Positions 1,827-20,868 of a stretch of DNA of 20,868 nucleotides are shown here, one piece after another. Below the pieces are notes generated by a model, which was given only the letters and a program-made list of their open reading frames with translations, had not been told where the DNA came from and did not search any database. How positions within the stretch are numbered: the first letter of the stretch is position 1; each line of letters starts with the position of its first letter. Where the stretch lies: positions 1 to 20,868 of IMG/VR virus record IMGVR_UViG_3300020118_000119, one strand, 5' to 3'. The position numbers were made by a program, and so were the translations under genes. The DNA is from a virus.

Positions 1827-2779
1827 CAGTCCACCCCGGCTTGGAAGTACATCACGCTTCTTTCAGCGTCTTTATTCCCCGCTATTCGCAACGCCGTCGA
1901 CAGGCTTGATTCTAGAACAGCAGTCCACGGGGCGTTGAACATCGGGGCGATCAGCTTGGCCAGCCCTAACGACAGGGGCAAGAACCACTCTTGAGAATAC
2001 TCAAAATTGTCTGCCGGGTTGGATAGATCTTGAATCGGCTCGAGGTAAGTGAGGACCAAGAATTTAGTGACGTCGTTTGCCGCACCACAGTCCGTATAGA
2101 GGAAACTGTTCCCCAGTTGATTTTCGTAGTAAATAGATACCGGGTCACCGATGTTGGTCGGGTCAGCTTTGTTCGGTAGCCAGTCGTATTCCGGCTGTTG
2201 CATGATCGTCATCGGGGTGTCGGAATTCGAGTGGTCCCGAAGCACCGCCGCTTCGATTTGCAACGGCTGAGTTCCAGTGGTTTGGTAACAATATATCACC
2301 GAACCGGGGGAAGATGACATGGGCAGTGTTCCTGCGATATTGACGACCAGCCCTACCACGGAAAGAACTGTAGCCCAATACAGAACATTAGTGTCGCACT
2401 GAATGCCGATATTATATCCAGCAACGATCCCCGAAGTGGATTTCACCTGCACCGAATTGGCCGCTGCTGCTGCGCTGGCCGTGGTGGTGGTTTGGGAAAA
2501 ACTGTTGGTCCACCCGGTGGCGGTCTGACCCACAGAATACTGGCCTGTGGTTCCGTTGAGAAATAAATAACCCCGGCGACGGGTAAAGGTCTTTAGACCG
2601 GGAGCGAAATCCGTTTTGCCCTGCCACTGTTTTACCATCATGTTGAGATACATGGAGCAATCAGTGACTTCTTGAGCAGTGGGAGTTTCCACCTCGTCCA
2701 ACTTACCGATATTCATCATCGCCAGCCGAATGATTTGGTCGCGATTTACAGTAAAGGTGAAAGTCCCACTGGTAGGCAT
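1826..2779 (-). CDS. P22 gp4-like head-completion / portal adaptor protein with insert
   Basis: The N-terminal block has RDQIIRLAMMNIGKLDEVE, then a Pro-Thr turn and YLNMMVKQWQGK. This is the usual helical opening of P22 gp4-like head-tail adaptors, which bind the bottom of the portal ring after packaging. At 317 aa it is about twice the length of P22 gp4. The extra part (about residues 75-175) is Ser/Thr/Ala/Val-rich and looks like an inserted beta domain; the helical fold resumes with a PEYDWLPNK segment and an FLPLSLGLAKLIAPMF helix. The gene lies two bases after the upstream transferase gene and overlaps gp10-like by ATGA. Order and spacing match a P22-type connector module. Longer gp4 homologues with such inserts occur in other podovirus-like phages as far as I recall, so the insert need not be a recent event. 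Confidence 0.75.
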   Translation of the reverse strand: MPTSGTFTFTVNRDQIIRLAMMNIGKLDEVETPTAQEVTDCSMYLNMMVKQWQGKTDFAPGLKTFTRRRGYLFLNGTTGQYSVGQTATGWTNSFSQTTTTASAAAAANSVQVKSTSGIVAGYNIGIQCDTNVLYWATVLSVVGLVVNIAGTLPMSSSPGSVIYCYQTTGTQPLQIEAAVLRDHSNSDTPMTIMQQPEYDWLPNKADPTNIGDPVSIYYENQLGNSFLYTDCGAANDVTKFLVLTYLEPIQDLSNPADNFEYSQEWFLPLSLGLAKLIAPMFNAPWTAVLESSLSTALRIAGNKDAERSVMYFQAGVD

Positions 2780-2781
2780 AA

Positions 2782-4353
2782 TTAGTCCTTCTTGGCGTCA
2801 ATCACTTCATTTAGCATGGAATAAACGTTTTCCCACACTGCTCCTACCGGAATGTCCGCTTGACACTGGGCTACGCCGCTGTTTTCGTCCTTTTTACAGA
2901 ACTCCCAGCCGTAGTGCAACTGGTGACAGGCCGGGGCCTCGTTGTTACCGCGACCCGGACAATTGGTGCTGCCGGAGTGGATAGCGGTGCAATTCTCCCA
3001 GTCCCTCGACAAATTTTTATGGGTGCTGTGGGACAAGAACAAAATCTTGCGAACTTGGTCGTGAGAGGCCGCATTCATAACGCCGGTTTCAGGACCTATG
3101 ATCAGGTCGCTCTCGGTAATGAACGCCAACGACTGACGGATGCTCCACTTGCCACAGGTCTCATGAACACGAGGTTCGTTTTCCCAGCCAGCTTCGAGAA
3201 TTTTACATTCAGGACCGCCGACCAGCACAATATGAGCATCCCTGAATCCGGTCAGGATGGAGGCGATAATGTTGTCCAGCCCTGACCATGTTTTGTGGAC
3301 CGAGCTTCCCGCCAGTGACCACATCACAACGGGGCCTTTTCCCATCTTCTTGCGTTCTTTCGACGCCCACTGTTTCTCGTCGAGGGTCGGGTAGAACTTG
3401 ACCGCCGGAGAATGCGGAATTCCCGCAATCTCATGAGAGAATTGCACGTAATTGTGATTCATGTACTTGTGACGAAGGCCAGCTGGCCATTCGAATTGGG
3501 AACGGCCCTTGATCGCCAAGAACGTGCCCTCGACGGATTCGGACAGGTTGACGAACTTGTCAAACTTGTTTTTCTGGTGCCCCCAAAAGTTGCCCAGATC
3601 GGCATTCGGCACTTGATCCTTGTCGAACAGGACAATCTTGTCGATGTTCGGGTCTTCGGTAATTACCTCAGCGCCGGGCAACGACGCGAACACCGTAACG
3701 TGGTACCCTTGTTTCTTGAGTCCGGCCCATACTGAGGAGGCCATCATCATGTCGCCAAACGCCCCGTACCGCACAACACAGGCAGTCTTCTCGGGCTTAC
3801 GGCGGCGGTAACTGAATTCGTGAGGACCGTTTTGCTTCTTGCGGAACACCATCAAGAACGAATATTCCTCGTCTTGGTCGCGAACTTCGCAGACTTCCAG
3901 GTCCCACTTGCCAGCATCCTTCATCCACTCAATGACCTTGGTTTCATTGAGGTTGTGCTTGTGGTCGGTGTTCGCGCCGGGTTCGCCCATCTTCGGGTAC
4001 AGGTCCTCGTGCGGCAGATACATGACCAACACGCCCTTCGGCTTGAGCAGACGCCACCACTCTTTCAACGCCTTGTCGGGGTTGACCAGATGCTCCAATA
4101 GATGGCTGGAATACACGAAGTCCATCGACTGAGACCCAAACACGCTCAAGTCTTCGGCATCCTGAACCTTCACATCCGGCTTGATGAACTGGCCGAAAAT
4201 CTCATGATGGCCGTTGTCGACGGAAATAGCGTGCGGAAGTATCTTGAAGGTGCCAGCACCGACATCCAAACCTCTTCCGCGCAGATACGGAGCTACTTCC
4301 CAAACAATCTTGGTGCTCTCCGGACGAAACTCTTGATCAGCTTTCCAAACCAT
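2782..4353 (-). CDS. Fused SAM methyltransferase and GT9 (heptosyltransferase-like) glycosyltransferase
   Basis: The 523-aa protein has two domains. Residues 1-180 form a class I SAM methyltransferase: motif I GLDVGAG at 28-34, a SMDFVYSSHLLEHL segment at 76-89 and LKPKGVLVMYLP at 103-114, the pattern of Methyltransf_11 proteins. Residues 190-510 resemble glycosyltransferase family 9: the start VVRYGAFGDMMMAS (193-206) matches the GxxGD entry of heptosyltransferases, IVLVGGPE (375-382) the middle strand, and GPETGVMNAAS (420-430) the nucleotide-sugar site. The tail (455-497) has five Cys residues, which is unusual for GT9 and could bind metal. The start has a GGGAGAG site and overlaps the upstream methyltransferase by 17 nt. 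The acceptor is unknown; host surface sugar or a virion protein are both possible. Catalytic type is well supported and biological role is not. Confidence 0.8.
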   Translation of the reverse strand: MVWKADQEFRPESTKIVWEVAPYLRGRGLDVGAGTFKILPHAISVDNGHHEIFGQFIKPDVKVQDAEDLSVFGSQSMDFVYSSHLLEHLVNPDKALKEWWRLLKPKGVLVMYLPHEDLYPKMGEPGANTDHKHNLNETKVIEWMKDAGKWDLEVCEVRDQDEEYSFLMVFRKKQNGPHEFSYRRRKPEKTACVVRYGAFGDMMMASSVWAGLKKQGYHVTVFASLPGAEVITEDPNIDKIVLFDKDQVPNADLGNFWGHQKNKFDKFVNLSESVEGTFLAIKGRSQFEWPAGLRHKYMNHNYVQFSHEIAGIPHSPAVKFYPTLDEKQWASKERKKMGKGPVVMWSLAGSSVHKTWSGLDNIIASILTGFRDAHIVLVGGPECKILEAGWENEPRVHETCGKWSIRQSLAFITESDLIIGPETGVMNAASHDQVRKILFLSHSTHKNLSRDWENCTAIHSGSTNCPGRGNNEAPACHQLHYGWEFCKKDENSGVAQCQADIPVGAVWENVYSMLNEVIDAKKD

Positions 4354-4903
4354 CTTTACTCTCCCGTGAATCGTTGATAAACCTTACAAAAGCCTTCTTG
4401 CATTTAGGAGCAAACTCAATTCTACCACTGTACAACTCTTCTACGGCTTTGTTCGCCCCGTCGAGGCAACCATAGTCGTCAAACCACATAATACCGCCGT
4501 CTATCATCAACGGCTCAAGAAACAAAGCTGCTTCTTTTATGGACTGATATTGGTCACAGTCCAAATGGGCAAAAGCTACCGGGGGCATCGGAACGGAACT
4601 CTCGGGGAATATGCCCTTAACCAGCATCACATCGGGTAAGTTGGCTTTAACGTGTTCGTACGAAGTGTTGCGAAAGTCCCCCACTCTGTGGGAATCATTG
4701 GGTCCTTGGTAAGGAATTCCCTCGAAAGTGTCGTATGCGAACATTTCCCTGCCCTGCCTCACGGCACCGACAGACAGCAACTGGGCGCTTCCGCCCTTGT
4801 ATACGCCTACTTCCACGACGCACCCGGGACCCAATTTCTTCATCATGCTGACCATTTCTTGGGCTACGTTCTCCCCGATGATCATTCCCAGACGATCAGC
4901 CAT
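4337..4903 (-). CDS. TylF/macrocin O-methyltransferase-like SAM methyltransferase
   Basis: This 188-aa protein has the SAM-binding strand VVEVGVYKGGSA (29-40), an acidic residue after the second strand in AYDTFEG (56-62), HLDCDQYQS (113-121) and FDDYGCLDGANKAVEE (141-156). The two Asp clusters at 115-117 and 142-143 match the metal-binding Asp set of TylF/NovP-type sugar O-methyltransferases. At 188 aa it is shorter than antibiotic-pathway members (about 250) and lacks their N-terminal lid. Its start overlaps the stop of the 105-aa gene (TGATG), and its own stop lies within the methyltransferase-GT9 fusion gene, so the two enzymes are likely made together. The simplest reading is that both act on one glycan: transfer of a sugar and its methylation. 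The substrate cannot be read from the sequence. Confidence 0.78.
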   Translation of the reverse strand: MADRLGMIIGENVAQEMVSMMKKLGPGCVVEVGVYKGGSAQLLSVGAVRQGREMFAYDTFEGIPYQGPNDSHRVGDFRNTSYEHVKANLPDVMLVKGIFPESSVPMPPVAFAHLDCDQYQSIKEAALFLEPLMIDGGIMWFDDYGCLDGANKAVEELYSGRIEFAPKCKKAFVRFINDSRESKDGLES

Positions 4904-13828: not shown

Positions 13829-15427
13829 CTACACAAATTCGGGTTCAGCGTAACGTTCTTCGTACGAACGGGGCGCAACAGGGTTCATGTCATATATGCG
13901 AGCAAAGGCGTCGATGGCATCTTTTTTCCCTACTGGGAAGTAATGGAATTGAAGCCGGATCTGTTCTGTCAAGTCGTATATTTGTCCATTTTCATCCTTA
14001 CGTCGAATTGCCCGGCTGATGCGGTAATCGTACCCGGTGTCTTTCATGTGCTTCTGGTTAGACGTCAACCGATTCGGATCAGTGGGCCGGGGGAACAACA
14101 ATTTTCCGGTACGACAGTCCGGCACCAGACGTTGAACTCGGTCGTTTTTGGACCCTTCCCCGTCCCGAGGCCATGCCAGTTCATGGACGTCGAATCGCGG
14201 GTTTCCCGGAAGCCGCATTTGTTCTTGGAAGTAATCCATGTCGGCCTGAGCGCCGAACGTTTCGTACCCCATCTTGATCATCTGAACACCGGGTGCTTTG
14301 CTCCACTTCTTGTACATCAGCGAGAAGTGTTCCCAGCGTTCTTTCAGGTCCATCTTGTGGTTGAACCCGTCCAGCAAGTACTTGTTCATCTGGGAGTCTA
14401 GTCCCAGCACGATTACAGCAGTGTTGGCTGAATCCTTTTTCTTACTACGAGCGGGGTCGCACATCACGTACACTGAAAGCGTAGATGGCCGGACGTCGTA
14501 TTCCCCTAGTTGTTGAACGTCGAACATTCTTTGTTCGCCGGACAGTGGATTCATGAGGTACTGACAGGCAATGTCGGAGTCAGTATTTTTTACCAGCCGC
14601 TTTTTCCACTCTTGCTCGCTAAAATATACTGGATTACCTTCACGGGTGCCGTCGTGTGTCGCGGGGTAGATGCGGGGTTTCAGCGCTCCTCGTTTCAATA
14701 CCCAGTCATAGAGGTCCGCGAACGAGTAGATCGTTCCGCACATCCATTCGTGCCCACCGACCACTCCAAGTGATTGTGACATGGAATAGTTGTTGATCGA
14801 CTTTTGTATCTGTTCGGGGGTGGAAACCGACTCAGGAACCACGGCATCATCGTAGATCCGAAGACGGTAATGTTTGCCGATCGGTTGCGAATCCAGCCCC
14901 GAAGCCTCAATAGTACATTCTTTCGGGTTGCCTTTCCGCTTGATTGTAATGCCGTAATTTGACCATTGCTTTGCTTCTTTGGACGGGTTTTTCCAGAAAA
15001 TTTCCGGGAATGCTGTTTTGAGGATCTCATTCCGCTCAAACTCCGCCTTGATTTGCTTAAGAAATGGTTCAGCGATCACGTTGCTGTGCCCAAAGATTCC
15101 TATTGTGATTTCAGGGTCGCGCAGGATTTCTTGTATGCAGCCGCCGAACGTAATGATCGTTGATTTGTAATGTTCTCGGCTCCAGAGGTCCAAGTATCCT
15201 GATGGATCGACCTCTACTTCCCTGCAACGATCGTAAATCCATGGGTGCAACATGTCATGGCGACCGCACACTTTTACCAGCAAGTAGTACCTATCCGTCA
15301 GGCAAAGTGCCCTTATGCCGGGGATGTAGGTGCCTTTTTGATCGATTTCGTCCCAGTACAACAACAGCTCCGGTAGCGGCAAGTTTGCCGGGGGAACCAG
15401 TGATGCTGCGGGGACGGGAGCGTTCAT
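13829..15427 (-). CDS. terL: Terminase large subunit
   Basis: The 532-aa product has the ATPase and nuclease parts of a packaging motor. LWSREHYKSTII (81-92) sits at the Walker A position but lacks the usual Gly before Lys. RLRIYDDAV (188-196) is Walker B with Asp-Asp in place of Asp-Glu. GGHEWMCGTIYSFADLY (224-240) follows where the coupling motif is expected. The nuclease domain begins YVMCDPARSKKKDSANTAVI (320-339) with Asp324, and MGYETFGAQADMDYF holds Glu389. It drives DNA into the procapsid through the portal and cuts concatemers. The ATG overlaps the terS stop (ATGA), and it ends in TAG before the 101-aa gene. Assignment is firm; packaging type (headful or cos) cannot be read. Confidence 0.92.
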   Translation of the reverse strand: MNAPVPAASLVPPANLPLPELLLYWDEIDQKGTYIPGIRALCLTDRYYLLVKVCGRHDMLHPWIYDRCREVEVDPSGYLDLWSREHYKSTIITFGGCIQEILRDPEITIGIFGHSNVIAEPFLKQIKAEFERNEILKTAFPEIFWKNPSKEAKQWSNYGITIKRKGNPKECTIEASGLDSQPIGKHYRLRIYDDAVVPESVSTPEQIQKSINNYSMSQSLGVVGGHEWMCGTIYSFADLYDWVLKRGALKPRIYPATHDGTREGNPVYFSEQEWKKRLVKNTDSDIACQYLMNPLSGEQRMFDVQQLGEYDVRPSTLSVYVMCDPARSKKKDSANTAVIVLGLDSQMNKYLLDGFNHKMDLKERWEHFSLMYKKWSKAPGVQMIKMGYETFGAQADMDYFQEQMRLPGNPRFDVHELAWPRDGEGSKNDRVQRLVPDCRTGKLLFPRPTDPNRLTSNQKHMKDTGYDYRISRAIRRKDENGQIYDLTEQIRLQFHYFPVGKKDAIDAFARIYDMNPVAPRSYEERYAEPEFV

Positions 15428-15933
15428 TTTTGCTGGATTTTAGACAACAAGTCGTTGGTGTCAGCCACCAATTTCATTATCAGGGGCGCATCCTTGTCGT
15501 GCTGAATCACGACAGGGGCCTGTTTCTTCGGCGCCACGTAATCCAGAATCTTCATGGCGATATCAGGGTAGAATTTGCAGGCCGCCACTTCCTCCCCCTG
15601 GTTTGTTACGAACGCCGCCGGCTCTTCGCCCATTACCATCGGGAACAGCTTCAGCAGCTGTGCCTTTACCCACTTTTCATTCAGGAAGTCCAAATCGTTG
15701 AGTTCCGATTGCACTTCGAAGATTGCCCCCCTTACCCCTTGGCTCTTCAGCATTTTAGCTGCAGCGCCGTGGCTCATTTTCAGGGACTCGGCCGCTTCCC
15801 TCAGGGAATAGGAGCTTTCCACATAAGCAGTAACGAAAGCTTGTTCAGCGACAGACAGCTTTGGCCAGAAGACCAGCGGTGCCGCTTCTGCTTCCGGGGG
15901 AGATTTGTCGCTTTCCGTGGTGATGGAATTCAT
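15424..15933 (-). CDS. terS: Terminase small subunit
   Basis: From ATG 15933 the product is 169 aa. After a Glu/Pro-rich 20-residue lead it has FWPKLSVAEQAFVTAYVESS, then YSLREAAESLKMSHGAAAKM and LKSQGVRGAIFE. This is the helix-turn-helix pattern of terminase_2-type small subunits, which bind the packaging site. The C-terminal half (about 85-165) is helical with a basic-hydrophobic end that probably contacts TerL. It is followed by terL with ATGA overlap. The frame is open to a TTG at 15981, but ATG 15933 has GGAGAAA about 10 nt upstream and fits the family length better. Promoter 16105-16133 lies upstream. Confidence 0.85.
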   Translation of the reverse strand: MNSITTESDKSPPEAEAAPLVFWPKLSVAEQAFVTAYVESSYSLREAAESLKMSHGAAAKMLKSQGVRGAIFEVQSELNDLDFLNEKWVKAQLLKLFPMVMGEEPAAFVTNQGEEVAACKFYPDIAMKILDYVAPKKQAPVVIQHDKDAPLIMKLVADTNDLLSKIQQK

Positions 15934-16069
15934 AGATCGATTTCTCCAGCATTCTGCGGCGTTCAGCAGGTTGAGCTTCAATTCGCAGTCGTAAATTTAG
16001 CAGCCAGCGTCTCAAGAAGAGTTCGTTGATTCCGTATCCAGCAGGGAGAGGAGTTTCAGCTACTTTCAT
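15845..16069 (-). CDS. Candidate 74-aa leader gene overlapping terS
   Basis: An ATG at 16069 with AGGTG upstream lies about 29 nt after the expected start point of promoter 16105-16133. Its first 45 residues (AETPLPAGYGINELFLRRWL, then LRLRIEAQPAERRRMLE) have a natural amphipathic composition and fill a stretch otherwise without a gene. The remaining 29 residues overlap the 5' part of terS in another frame. It may be a short basic helical protein or a leader whose translation affects terS. The long overlap makes it uncertain. Confidence 0.42.
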   Translation of the reverse strand: MKVAETPLPAGYGINELFLRRWLLNLRLRIEAQPAERRRMLEKSIYEFHHHGKRQISPGSRSGTAGLLAKAVCR

Positions 16070-16104
16070 GTGACACCTATTTGGCGACGAGCGCCTATAG
16101 GAAC

Positions 16105-16133
16105 AGTATACCACAGGCGGCGATTCTTGTCAA
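16105..16133 (-). promoter_or_regulatory. Strong sigma70-type promoter for the terminase/late block
   Basis: On the minus strand TTGACA (16133-16128) and TATACT (16110-16105) are 17 bp apart. The bases before the -10 are GCCTGTGG, the same TGTGG seen at the other two promoters. The start point would be near 16098, next to a CCTATAGG palindrome. It would transcribe the 74-aa candidate, terS, terL and the small genes behind them. Confidence 0.88.
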
Positions 16134-16177
16134 GTACCTGAATCCATCGGCGGGAAGAAACTGTAGGTGACGATAGA

Positions 16178-16316
16178 ATCTACTCTCGAAGCTAATTGAA
16201 CAGCAGCGGAGCGGGGAAAGAGAAACCGGGAAAGGTCGAAAGAGAAACCGGGAAAGGTCGAAAGAGAAACCGGGAAAGGTCGAAAGAGGACAGCGGATGG
16301 GGGATCTACTCTCGAA
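16178..16316. repeat. 13-bp direct repeat pair flanking the 22-bp array
   Basis: ATCTACTCTCGAA occurs at 16178-16190 and again at 16304-16316, one on each side of the 22-bp tandem array. The copies are identical and in the same orientation. They may be protein-binding sites or remnants of a larger duplicated unit. Confidence 0.6.
16217..16290. repeat. 22-bp tandem repeat, three full copies plus a partial
   Basis: Three exact 22-bp units start with AAAGAGAAACC and end GGGAAAGGTCG, at 16217-16238, 16239-16260 and 16261-16282, followed by AAAGAGGA (16283-16290) as a broken fourth. One strand is almost purely purine. A 22-bp period is about two helical turns and resembles iterons. Exact identity suggests recent expansion or strong constraint. 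Confidence 0.85.
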
Positions 16317-16611
16317 AACCATGGTTGATTTTCGGCGGACGGGGAAAATAGCGACCTCCGAGTACTCTCTATCTTCCGTCCGACGAGGGCTTGCTCCCGG
16401 AAGTACCCCCCTATTCCCCGCCCCGGAAAAATATACCCCTATTCCTACGTCATATGTTTCTGTCATACCTCCTTTATGCGACCGCCATACGCAATCGATG
16501 GCGTTTCACGTGTTCCACGATATCCGCTGGTTGTCCGATTTCCTGTGACGACAGACCCGGCCCGGCCCGACCCCCGACCGGCATCGAGCGACGGCGACCG
16601 GGGGCGACGGA

Positions 16612-16672
16612 GACCCATCGTCGGGGGTCGGGTGGCGGGGCGGCGACCCATCGTCGGGCCATCGGGTGGCGG
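16612..16672. repeat. GC-rich direct repeat, two copies
   Basis: Two copies of a 27/28-bp unit, GACCCATCGTCGGG followed by four variable bases and CGGGTGGCGG, lie at 16612-16638 and 16645-16672. Only the central GGTC/CCAT bases and one length change differ. They sit directly before the 42-bp array. Confidence 0.75.
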
Positions 16673-16678
16673 CTGTAT

Positions 16679-16804
16679 CTGGTTACCTGTTGCCTGAAAT
16701 TTGGCACGTTTCATGCTTTTACTGTTTGATGTAAGCCGACGTCTGGCACGTTTCATACTTTGCTGGTTGCCTGTTTCCTGAAATCTGGCACGTTTCATGC
16801 TAAG
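16679..16804. repeat. 42-bp tandem array, three units
   Basis: The core TGGCACGTTTCAT starts at 16702, 16744 and 16786, exactly 42 bp apart (four helical turns). The outer units (39 bp compared, 16679-16717 and 16763-16801) differ at only three positions. The middle unit keeps the core but has diverged in its first half. On the minus strand the unit would encode 14 residues (MKRARFQETGNQ-like three times), because 42 is a multiple of three. The conserved core and diverged middle flank favour DNA-binding sites over coding. Confidence 0.85.
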
Positions 16805-16820
16805 GCAACAACCGTGCCAT

Positions 16821-16832
16821 GTAAGCGCTTAC
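16821..16832. repeat. 12-bp perfect palindrome GTAAGCGCTTAC
   Basis: A perfect palindrome lies 17 bp after the 42-bp array; a related ATGTAAGC half-site occurs at 16729-16736 within the middle unit. It is a candidate operator for a dimeric regulator. Confidence 0.5.
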
Positions 16833-17174
16833 TAACCCCGGAAACCGCGCCCCTGGCTGAGCTTGCAGGAAGCTACCGCCCTTGGCCTTGCGCCAACTGG
16901 CCGGTAGGTCAGCCCCAACTGCCGTGAAACGTTGAAGAGAGATAGTGTGGAACGCCCGTGGAACCGTGAAACACATGGAACGAATCTTGCTACGTGCGTC
17001 CGCGTGCGTGTTTCGTTGATTGTGGCAGCAGACGAGGGGAGAAAGTAGGGGGCGAACGGCCTCGAATCGGGGACAGGGAGCGAGGAAGGCGGATGGCGGC
17101 CTTCGACCACCTGCTGTGGCCCAGCAACTCGGGGCTTCCGTCCGGGGCGATCAGCCTGCGTGTCTCTTCTGCTT

Positions 17175-17211
17175 GGGTCCCCCTCGTCCCAGCCCTCGTC
17201 GAGGGGGACCC
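17175..17211. other. 12-bp perfect hairpin with 13-nt loop
   Basis: GGGTCCCCCTCG (17175-17186) pairs with CGAGGGGGACCC (17200-17211). It is very stable but has no T run on either side, so it is not a classical terminator. It could stabilise an RNA, block transcription crossing the region, or bind a protein. Confidence 0.6.
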
Positions 17212-17317
17212 CCCAACCACCACCATCCTCCCTCAGAAGGGGGGGATCTTATCGGGTCGCTCCGGACGACGAGAGAAAAGGTATACGCCCCTATCCGAGA
17301 CCGGATCCTTAAATCTA

Positions 17318-17329
17318 CCGATATATCGG
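17318..17329. repeat. 12-bp perfect palindrome CCGATATATCGG
   Basis: This self-complementary AT-centred site lies 22 bp after the third CCCCTATCC octamer. It is a candidate dimeric-regulator site, though palindromes of this length are not rare by chance in a 1.7-kb region. Confidence 0.4.
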
Positions 17330-17577
17330 ACCCGAACTTCGATCACACTTCGGTGCCAGAGTATCTATCCACCTATCTCGTGATGGGATGACCACTATCT
17401 CCCTCATCGACGGTCCGACGCCCTCGTCGGGCTGTCCTCAATGTCTGCCGCCCGTGACCGATAGGGGAGTCCTCTGTTCAAACGTGGCGTGACCGGAGGG
17501 GACGATACCGAATCGCCACGAGGGGGGCACCTCCTATCTCAAGTGTCTCTCTCGTAATCGAGATGAGAGTATGCCTC

Positions 17578-17592
17578 GGATCGGCCCGATCC
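17578..17592. repeat. 7-1-7 palindrome GGATCGG-C-CCGATCC next to an octamer
   Basis: Two perfect 7-bp arms with one central base end two bases before the GATAGGGG copy at 17594. The close pairing with an octamer makes it a candidate composite operator. It also contains two GATC sites. Confidence 0.5.
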
Positions 17593-17741
17593 CGATAGGG
17601 GTTAGTCCCGGTGTCGCATGATGTCGTCATAGGATTGTTTGATCCCGTTCGCGATATGTCTGAGACCAGAGGGGATAGGGGAGACCCCTCGTACCCTATA
17701 GTACACATCTACCACGCCTTCTTCTGTCTGTAAATAGTCGC

Positions 17742-17783
17742 CCGACGAACGGTAGGTCAGAAGTGTCTTTGGCCGTTCGTCGG
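17742..17783. promoter_or_regulatory. 11-bp perfect inverted repeat upstream of the early promoter
   Basis: CCGACGAACGG (17742-17752) and CCGTTCGTCGG (17773-17783) are exact inverted copies 20 bp apart. The right arm ends about 30 bp before the early promoter -35 box. Arm centres are 31 bp apart, close to three helical turns, so two dimers or a looped regulator could bind one DNA face. As RNA it would form a hairpin with a 20-nt loop but no T run follows. Confidence 0.62.
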
Positions 17784-17812
17784 CTGAATGATCGGCCTGT
17801 GTTCGGGGGGGA

Positions 17813-17841
17813 TTGTGTGCTGGCTCGGCCTGTGGTACAAT
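17813..17841 (+). promoter_or_regulatory. Sigma70-type early promoter
   Basis: TTGTGT (17813-17818) and TACAAT (17836-17841) are 17 bp apart. The bases before the -10 are GGCCTGTGG, repeating the TGTGG element of the two late promoters. TCGGCCTGTG also occurs at 17790-17799. The -35 is two bases from consensus, so an activator or the extended element may matter. It would start near 17848, leaving a leader of about 55 nt before the first early gene. Confidence 0.8.
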
Positions 17842-17903
17842 AGAGTCTCGGTGGTGCTGGGGCTGGCCACCGAACTTCCAGACAGCCCCTCAAGGAGATC
17901 GAG

Positions 17904-18638
17904 ATGACCAAGAGCACCAAGGCAACCAAGAACGCCCCGACCAGCACCGCATCTTTCGAGATCGGCAATCGGGTTATCGCCACCACTGCAGCGACCAACC
18001 AAACGCCTGCTGCTGGCACTATCACCAACAAGTCCAGCACCGGCTGGTTGATCGTGACACTGGACAGTCCGGACCAGTTTTCCGGCTGTAAGGGCGGCAT
18101 CCTGTCGGCCCGTGCGTCGAGCCTCAAGTTGGAAGCCAACGAGGCCGGAAAGTTGGTCGCACCGGCAACCCCAGCACCCGTCGCGGCCGCTGACAAGAAG
18201 GAAACCAAGAAAGAACCGAAAGCTGCTCGCAAGATCCCTGACGAGTGCCCCGAATGCGGTTCTGGCGAGTTGGAATCCGACGAGGAAGGCGAGAAGGAAG
18301 AGAGCAAGATGGCCGGGGCATTGCGCAAGGCACGTGCCCATTACACGAAAGATGTGCGACCTGACGGCAGTGCCACCGCCCACAACGGCGACCTGATCGC
18401 AAAAGAACTCCGTTGGTATGAGCCACTGGAAGTCTGCGAGTTGGCTGATCGTTGCCTGCTCTGCGCCCCCGGTTACCACGCCGATCGTTATGCGGATCTG
18501 AATCCGGGCCAAAAGCGCATGAATTCCGGCAATCGGATCCGTGCGGCGTACCGCAAGGCCACTGAAGACAACGATTCCGTGGTACTGGCGCGCATCAACA
18601 AGGCCCTGCAGCTGGCCATCCTACCCGATAACGAGTGA
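17904..18638 (+). CDS. Early 244-aa protein with SH3-like start and split cysteine cluster
   Basis: This is the first gene behind the early promoter, with AAGGAGATCGAG before the ATG. Residues 18-70 (FEIGNRVIATTAATNQTPAA, then GTITNKSSTGWLIVTLDS) read like a small SH3/KOW-type beta barrel. A Lys/Ala/Pro-rich linker follows (80-110). CPEC at 115-118 and C178, C184, C187 (CELADRCLLC) could bind one zinc, with an acidic stretch between. The C-terminus (205-240) is helical and basic. I recognise no family. Being first in the early operon, it may act on host transcription, translation or DNA, or regulate the phage itself; this is inference. It ends four bases before an in-frame GTG and 12 nt before the next ATG. 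Confidence 0.75.
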   Translation: MTKSTKATKNAPTSTASFEIGNRVIATTAATNQTPAAGTITNKSSTGWLIVTLDSPDQFSGCKGGILSARASSLKLEANEAGKLVAPATPAPVAAADKKETKKEPKAARKIPDECPECGSGELESDEEGEKEESKMAGALRKARAHYTKDVRPDGSATAHNGDLIAKELRWYEPLEVCELADRCLLCAPGYHADRYADLNPGQKRMNSGNRIRAAYRKATEDNDSVVLARINKALQLAILPDNE

Positions 18639-18649
18639 AAGGAAGCATC

Positions 18650-18949
18650 ATGGCTGCAACAAAGAAGAACACCCCGACCGTCTGCAAGGTATCCGACGGG
18701 GCCAATCTGGACGGGGCCAATCTGGACGGGGCCAATCTGCGCGACTGCCCCTTGGTGACCAGTGAATGGAACGGCGACGAGTCCATGCTGGTCAAGTCCG
18801 GCGATCGCGTGGAAGTTGAGATGGACCAGTTCGAAGTGTTGGACCGCGACACGTACGAGGCGATCTGTGACGCCAAACGCGCAGAAAAGGAAGTCGAGAA
18901 GGCTGCTGCTCAAAGTGCTGTCGAACCCGCGCAGGGCAGCTGCTCGTAA
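18650..18949 (+). CDS. Early 99-aa protein with a short pentapeptide-repeat insert
   Basis: The ATG at 18650 has AAAGGAAG about six bases upstream; an in-frame GTG at 18635 would add five residues but overlaps the previous stop. Residues 14-30 hold [17 protein letters not shown], three units of the A(D/N)LxG pentapeptide repeat, too few to form a stable beta-helix. The rest (SEWNGDESMLVKSGDRVEVE, then DQFEVLDRDTYEAICDAKRA) is an acidic mixed fold with no known family. The repeat DNA (18688-18718) is identical over 31 nt to the start of the repeat in the gene at 20640, although the flanks are unrelated. The repeat therefore looks like a transferred minisatellite inside another gene. Confidence 0.72.
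   Translation: MAATKKNTPTVCKVSDGANLDGANLDGANLRDCPLVTSEWNGDESMLVKSGDRVEVEMDQFEVLDRDTYEAICDAKRAEKEVEKAAAQSAVEPAQGSCS
18688..18733 (+). repeat. 15-bp pentapeptide-coding repeat, short copy
   Basis: Units of GACGGGGCCAATCTG repeat three times, in frame with the 99-aa gene. The segment 18688-18718 is identical to 20723-20753. Confidence 0.88.
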
Positions 18950-20531: not shown

Positions 20532-20653
20532 CCGAAACCCAAATGTGGGTCGTCATTGGCCTATTAACGCTGTTGGTCATCTCGTTGATGATGATCAGCG
20601 GCACCCTTGAACGTATTGACAGAAACTTGGGGAGCAAAAATGATCACCATTAA
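20528..20653 (+). CDS. Small single-span membrane protein, 41 aa
   Basis: The ATG overlaps the previous TGA (ATGA) and has AAGGAAG upstream. Residues 7-23 ([17 protein letters not shown]) form one clear membrane helix, with a short acidic/polar N-terminus and a charged C-terminus ([15 protein letters not shown]). The Glu/Arg/Lys pattern suggests the C-terminal part is cytoplasmic or peripheral, but topology is not decided. The end overlaps the start of the pentapeptide gene by 14 nt. Small early membrane proteins in phages can act in superinfection exclusion, membrane takeover or lysis control; none is shown here. Confidence 0.68.
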
Positions 20654-20868
20654 GCATAGATTTTCAAACGCAACGCTGTGTGAGTTCGACGTTCCGACGT
20701 TGAAAGAGGCCGTCGTTAAGGCGGTATCCGACGGGGCCAATCTGGACGGGGCCGATCTGCGCGGGGCCAATCTGCGCGGGGCCAATCTGCGCGGGGCCAA
20801 TCTGGACGGGGCCGATCTGCGCGGGGCCAATCTGCGCGGGGCCAATCTGCGCGGGGCCAATCTGGACG
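20640..20868 (+). CDS. Pentapeptide-repeat protein, N-terminal part (runs off the window)
   Basis: GGGGAG lies about six bases before ATG 20640. Residues 1-30 ([20 protein letters not shown], then [12 protein letters not shown]) match the short leader I recall from phage pentapeptide proteins (ITIKxRFxxxxLFExExxxLKxAVExAVxxGANL). Repeats follow to the window edge, [15 protein letters not shown] and so on, nine units visible, consistent with a right-handed quadrilateral beta-helix. Some members mimic DNA and bind gyrase, but most have no known role. The repeat DNA has a 60-bp higher-order period. The C-terminus is not in the window. Confidence 0.85.
20723..20868 (+). repeat. 15-bp pentapeptide-coding tandem repeat with 60-bp higher-order period
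   Basis: Basic units are 15 bp (GACGGGGCCAATCTG or GCGCGGGGCCAATCT in shifted phase). The order D-D-R-R-R-D-R-R-R gives a 60-bp superunit: 20761-20808 is identical to 20821-20868. The first 31 nt (20723-20753) equal 18688-18718. Confidence 0.9.

Follow-up and report, generated by a model that had tools for sequence, protein, structure and literature searches.

The window, meaning the whole stretch of DNA that was analysed, comprises the 20,868 bases of IMG/VR virus record IMGVR_UViG_3300020118_000119, which is a fragment. Genes were called with a home-made, hexamer-based caller. A left operon on the minus strand holds the terminase, an SU10-type portal, and head and connector genes, while a right operon on the plus strand runs from 17904 and starts with a gene related to phrog_8878. 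These divergent operons are separated by a noncoding gap of about 1.8 kb (approximately 16070-17903), which houses the repeats. The genes and promoter candidates bordering the gap are listed here.

13829-15427, minus strand: terminase large subunit (PHROG 38).
15424-15933, minus strand: probable terminase small subunit, from the gene call, its place ahead of the large subunit and its likeness to a protein of locus L011.
15845-16069, minus strand: gene of 74 aa, probably the first of the left operon, from a similar frame in L011, judged by eye.
16105-16133, minus strand: sigma-70-like promoter of the left operon, TTGACA-17-TATACT plus TG, 11 of 12 matches.
17813-17841, plus strand: sigma-70-like promoter of the right operon, TTGTGT-17-TACAAT plus TG, 8 of 12 matches.
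17904-18638, plus strand: first gene of the right operon, phrog_8878-related, with relatives in L011, L012, L013 and L183.

A family search with the small subunit candidate found no match; the 74-aa frame overlaps its start in another frame. The left promoter recurs in L011 with identical hexamers and spacing, and the right promoter aligns there with TTGTGC-17-TATAAT. Searches with the noncoding region found no match in Rfam or among phage DNA. Elsewhere in the window, pentapeptide-repeat genes (GANLDGANL) with perfect 15-bp and 60-bp DNA repeats lie at 18650-18949 and 20607-20867. Two adjacent genes of the structural operon occupy 2782-4903, the first with a methyltransferase domain; its C-terminal part and the second gene resemble, by eye, sugar-modifying enzymes.

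An earlier note on this DNA had described TGGCACGTTTCAT as recurring at 16702, 16744 and 16786, with a period of exactly 42 bp. Direct search bears this out, the 36/39 identity of the outer 39-nt units is reproduced, and the gene calls agree that the array lies between divergent operons. TRF places it at 16679-16798. The 22-bp array that had been put next to it is real, a perfect tandem repeat of 3.3 copies (GAAAGAGAAACCGGGAAAGGTC) at 16216-16288 in the same gap, but it lies about 390 bp away and is therefore not adjacent. A GC-rich repeat of 33 bp and an inverted repeat of 13 bp (CCCGACCCCCGAC), in part similar to L011, also lie in the gap, at 16566-16672.

Compared with the other two units, the middle unit keeps 15-16 of 17 positions inside the repeated box and 10 of 22 outside it. 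Since this unit has diverged outside the box and not inside, the box is the part that has been retained. When the copies of TGGCACGTTTCAT are lengthened by three bases each they read TGGCACGTTTCATGCT, TGGCACGTTTCATACT and TGGCACGTTTCATGCT, with one, two and one mismatches, respectively, to TGGCACG-N4-TTGCW. Judged by its sequence, the repeat is a sigma-54 (RpoN) -24/-12 element, TGGCACG-N4-WTGCW. The features found in this part of the gap are as follows.

16679-16801, plus strand: the three 42-bp units of the earlier note (TRF, repeat search, unit comparison).
16702-16717, plus strand: sigma-54-like -24/-12 site 1, TGGCACGTTTCATGCT, 15 of 16 positions matching TGGCACGNNNNTTGCW.
16744-16759, plus strand: sigma-54-like site 2, TGGCACGTTTCATACT, with two consensus mismatches; the box is kept and the rest of the unit has diverged.
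16786-16801, plus strand: sigma-54-like site 3, TGGCACGTTTCATGCT, at the same position as a perfect site in L011.
16804-16819, minus strand: sigma-54-like site 4, TGGCACGGTTGTTGCC, facing site 3, its position conserved in L011.
16976-16991, plus strand: sigma-54-like site 5, TGGAACGAATCTTGCT, one mismatch.
16786-16819, no strand: face-to-face site pair, 34 bp, a type found in 103 viral stretches and in none with the wrong spacing.
16786-16917, no strand: best-conserved noncoding block common to the window and L011 (69 percent identity, E 2.7e-16).
16821-16832, no strand: perfect 12-bp palindrome, GTAAGCGCTTAC, from reading the sequence, with a similar one in L011.

Sites 4 (minus) and 5 (plus) were absent from the earlier note's list. 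The -24 GG and the -12 GC are present in sites 1, 3, 4 and 5; in site 2 the GC is replaced by AC, which probably makes it weaker. Four sites with at most one mismatch to TGGCACGNNNNTTGCW fall within the 1 kb from 16460 to 17459, while Markov shuffling of that segment gave even one such site in only 16 of 2000 versions. We read the repeats as a cluster of at least four, and probably five, putative host sigma-54 sites, two of which are paired face-to-face. In the pair (16786-16819) the two possible transcripts diverge and the -12 elements are almost in contact. Four sites of the window point right and one left, each toward an operon but 0.9-1.2 kb off. The palindrome beside the pair is possibly a separate operator or activator site.

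L011 has the same layout: its plus site at 4267 is perfect and the minus partner at 4285 weaker, both lying within the part that aligns to the conserved block. There the counterpart of site 4 is TAGCACGGTTTTTGCC, in which one G of the -24 GG is gone. Its own palindrome, similar to GTAAGCGCTTAC, is at 4303-4318, and three direct repeats resembling GYGARCGCTTAC lie upstream at 4005-4070. L013 has 11 sites, all aimed at the gene that opens the right operon, the last lying about 120 bp upstream, and L183 has six between the terminase and a member of the phrog_8878-related gene family. The array is often present in relatives of the first right-hand gene. Several of the 12 loci from the gene-family alignment have no site (e.g. 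L330, L333, L334, L336 and L337), so that the array is patchy even within the family. Terminase and portal relatives (L004-L010, L015-L067) have no such clusters, and the array therefore does not track the structural module. Other arrays are seen in L005 (744-1059 and 1201-1260), L006 and L007, where CCATGCCCTA-like repeats and a 13-bp repeat, ACTCACGTTGCT, occupy the matching noncoding gap; none of these repeat arrays of terminase relatives contains the sigma-54 motif. L012 encodes two predicted proteins of a cysteine-rich repeat (CTNCTDCTGC-like) at 2087-2428 and 2703-3440.

Minus-strand coding of a 14-aa repeat peptide had been offered as an alternative for the 42-bp array. An open frame does span 16463-16798, and a 42-bp period is divisible by 3. 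The gene caller, however, did not choose this frame, which has no family match and scores 0.04 per codon by hexamers against 0.40-0.49 for the real neighbouring genes. In L011 and L013 the sites lie between genes, in noncoding DNA there too. Coding is the least probable of the explanations that we weighed.

The motif used for scanning viral sequences was chosen from knowledge of sigma-54 after the window had been read, and because the search was seeded with the sigma-54 consensus, the general form of the motif is imposed. Independent evidence comes from the controls on spacing, from the additional sites and from the comparison with bacteria. Tandem pairs, defined as two elements 10-40 bp apart, occur in at least 120 stretches of viral contigs with the N4 spacer and in two with N5. 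Face-to-face pairs occur in 103 stretches with N4 and in none with a spacer one base longer. In the tandem loci listed, sites with at most one mismatch number 582 with N4 (about 240 of them present by search selection, the remainder unselected), nine with N3 and six with N5.

The classical sigma-54 consensus is CTGGYAYR-N4-TTGCA. C6>T and G7>A are the substitutions seen most often among the matches listed from 140 non-redundant array loci, and they correspond to the degeneracy of that consensus. T12>A is also common in the 140 loci, as it is in the window, and so are changes at the weakly constrained last position. Taking composition and substitutions together, the 648 sites of these 140 non-redundant loci agree with the wider consensus YTGGCAYR-N4-TTGCW. 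From this likeness we infer that host sigma-54 would bind the sites.

About 90 percent of the sites are intergenic, compared with about 26 percent of random positions, and divergent gaps account for 60 of the 113 multi-site regions, compared with some 30-35 percent of intergenic length. Among the matches listed for the tandem loci, same-strand neighbours have a modal spacing of 26-28 bp, or about 2.5 turns, and back-to-back neighbours are mostly 23-26 bp apart; face-to-face neighbours, for which the listed tandem loci were not selected, are mostly 17-22 bp apart. The phasing by four helical turns that the earlier note had proposed does not carry over: 42 bp is not a preferred spacing in other viral arrays, so four-turn phasing is no rule.

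That note had seen the array as suited to a replication initiator, with the repeats as iterons of an origin. Iteron arrays of plasmid and phage origins are likewise direct repeats in noncoding DNA, and the region is rich in repeats. Here, though, the sites are in both orientations with variable spacing, and in its wider motif, 4-bp spacer and pattern of substitutions the element corresponds to sigma-54. Searches with proteins of the window, which is a fragment, recognised no initiator gene, and the cumulative GC skew, suggested as a check for an origin, is nearly flat across 15-19 kb of that fragment. We consider an origin very unlikely, only slightly less so than coding.

A different protein of host or phage, such as a repressor or a partition protein, might read the same sequence. 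The face-to-face pairs and alternating arrays do resemble operator clusters, and some array loci also carry parS sites for host ParB. On the other side, the motif equals the sigma-54 consensus at every informative position, the degenerate ones included, and the phages with arrays are diverse, belonging to several terminase PHROG families, as would be expected of a widespread host factor more than of a single phage protein. This explanation is improbable, if less so than an origin. The wider idea of repeated sites for one DNA-binding protein, which the earlier note put forward, thus survives, but the protein that it named and the geometry do not fit.

Sequences matching parS (TGTTTCACGTGAAACA) surround the triple sigma-54 array of L183 (3252-3492; two perfect, one with one mismatch and one with two), and also occur in L197 (903, perfect) and L011 (4090, two mismatches); ten shuffled palindromes used as a control gave 0-2 matches in 1.2 Mb of array loci. 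In L137, the repeats GTTGGTTAAAGCTGACCA and ACAAGCCGTTGTGGT at 601-960 lie beside a ten-site sigma-54 array and are possible further operators.

In bacterial and archaeal genomes (257 Gb) face-to-face pairs were found six times, compared with the 103 viral stretches; these are raw counts, not scaled to the number of bases in the viral collection. The sigma-54 DNA-binding domain (PF04552) was found in none of 90 array records, and the enhancer-binding activator domain (PF00158) in none of 50. The lack of a viral sigma-54 in the array records checked implies a host factor. The terminases next to arrays fall in PHROG families 38, 2, 979 and 15, so the arrays seemingly arose or spread in several lineages. 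No array was found in 17 named or circular phage records, each of which has at most two isolated near-matches; Alteromonas phage ZP6 and Stenotrophomonas phage BUCT555 have the downstream gene family and not the sites. Dense clusters, many with mirror-image pairs, occur in more than 100 unrelated viral sequences and hardly ever in bacterial genomes; this suggests hijacking or soaking up of sigma-54 by phages.

The main rival to soaking up is that the sites are working promoters, used by host sigma-54 polymerase with an activator from the host, such as one responding to the stress of infection. On this account a face-to-face pair would serve two divergent operons as a compact two-way promoter, and occupancy would rise with tandem copies. 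The -24/-12 elements are perfect, the sites strongly prefer noncoding and divergent regions, the array of the window lies between divergent operons, and the arrays of L142 and L143, like all 11 sites of L013, are aimed at the next gene. Orientation argues the other way. Outside divergent gaps, eight same-strand arrays face the next gene and 15 face away from it, and a complete or partial reading of eleven array phages counted 18 toward against 33 away. Divergent gaps show no sorting of plus and minus sites by nearness to the gene that each points to (p = 0.10). No A+T-rich, melting or start-site signal was seen downstream of isolated sites, in a comparison that had no known sigma-54 promoters as controls. 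Sigma-70-like promoters of their own are present in the window and L011, and similar ones are enriched beside arrays, lying upstream of 39 of 138 array-flanking genes where about 17 were expected. The lack of a viral activator in the 50 records searched also counts against promoters. We regard this account as possible but doubtful. The switch regulator of the earlier note could still hold, only in the form of sigma-54 promoters.

An orientation signal in favour of promoters that appeared initially was rejected as an artefact of divergent regions, where every site is gene-directed; it is gone elsewhere.

The lack of gene-directed orientation, the separate sigma-70 promoters, the confinement of clusters to one locus (all 6-10 sites of G044, G042 and G039 are at a single locus) and the absence of a viral sigma-54 or activator from the records checked together favour docking of host sigma-54 over ordinary promoters. 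Titration would be the most economical use of such docking sites, which favours it and is not proof. We therefore prefer, with a probability of roughly one half, the reading that this phage uses the sites mainly as a DNA sponge for host sigma-54. Somewhat more tentatively, many unrelated phages may carry natural sponges of this kind, near-perfect arrays that would soak up RpoN polymerase and silence the sigma-54 responses of the host.

The sigma-54 holoenzyme binds DNA in a transcriptionally inactive state, as described in PMC4591121. On the phage sites, sigma-54 polymerase would dock as a closed complex and stay silent without an ATP-driven activator. Replication of the phage DNA would multiply the sites and draw sigma-54 off host promoters, while the phage operons would start from their own sigma-70 promoters. 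Titration of host sigma-54, with a benefit to the phage, would be the outcome.

Several observations count against a sponge. The arrays prefer divergent intergenic regions, where promoters are expected. Of two sites that face each other 17-22 bp apart, only one can be filled at a time, and that would be a waste in a sponge. Many sites without gene-directed orientation, as a decoy should have, are seen by sequence in the viral set, but the number in the window is only 4-5, and one of these has a damaged -12 element.

The arrays share with bacterial sigma-54 promoters the consensus, the 4-bp spacer between CACG and TTGC and the substitution profile. They differ in lying in phage noncoding DNA, in their density (up to 10 or more sites), in the face-to-face pairs, which are nearly absent from bacterial genomes, and in having no gene-orientation rule. 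Two-way palindromic sigma-70-type promoters, in which opposed elements use one short stretch, are comparable, but here the elements are those of sigma-54 and whole -24/-12 boxes face each other. The datA locus titrates DnaA, its clustered sites in noncoding DNA holding a host factor; the phage arrays would likewise be clustered noncoding sites for a host factor, with a different protein and motif. Synthetic decoy sites for transcription factors have been built in E. coli, as PMC7826281 describes, and by analogy the extra sites of the phages, their high affinity being predicted, could titrate a regulator; here the sites are natural, phage-borne and directed at a sigma factor, and titration would follow from their number and likeness. 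A full-text search of the open-access literature, with subscription papers mostly outside it, did not turn up any account of sigma-54 site arrays in phages.

In many bacteria sigma-54 governs stress, motility, surface and nitrogen functions. If the sites are promoters, many phages would link their gene expression to a host regulator that requires an activator. If they are a sponge, a host sigma factor would be taken over by DNA alone, without a protein.
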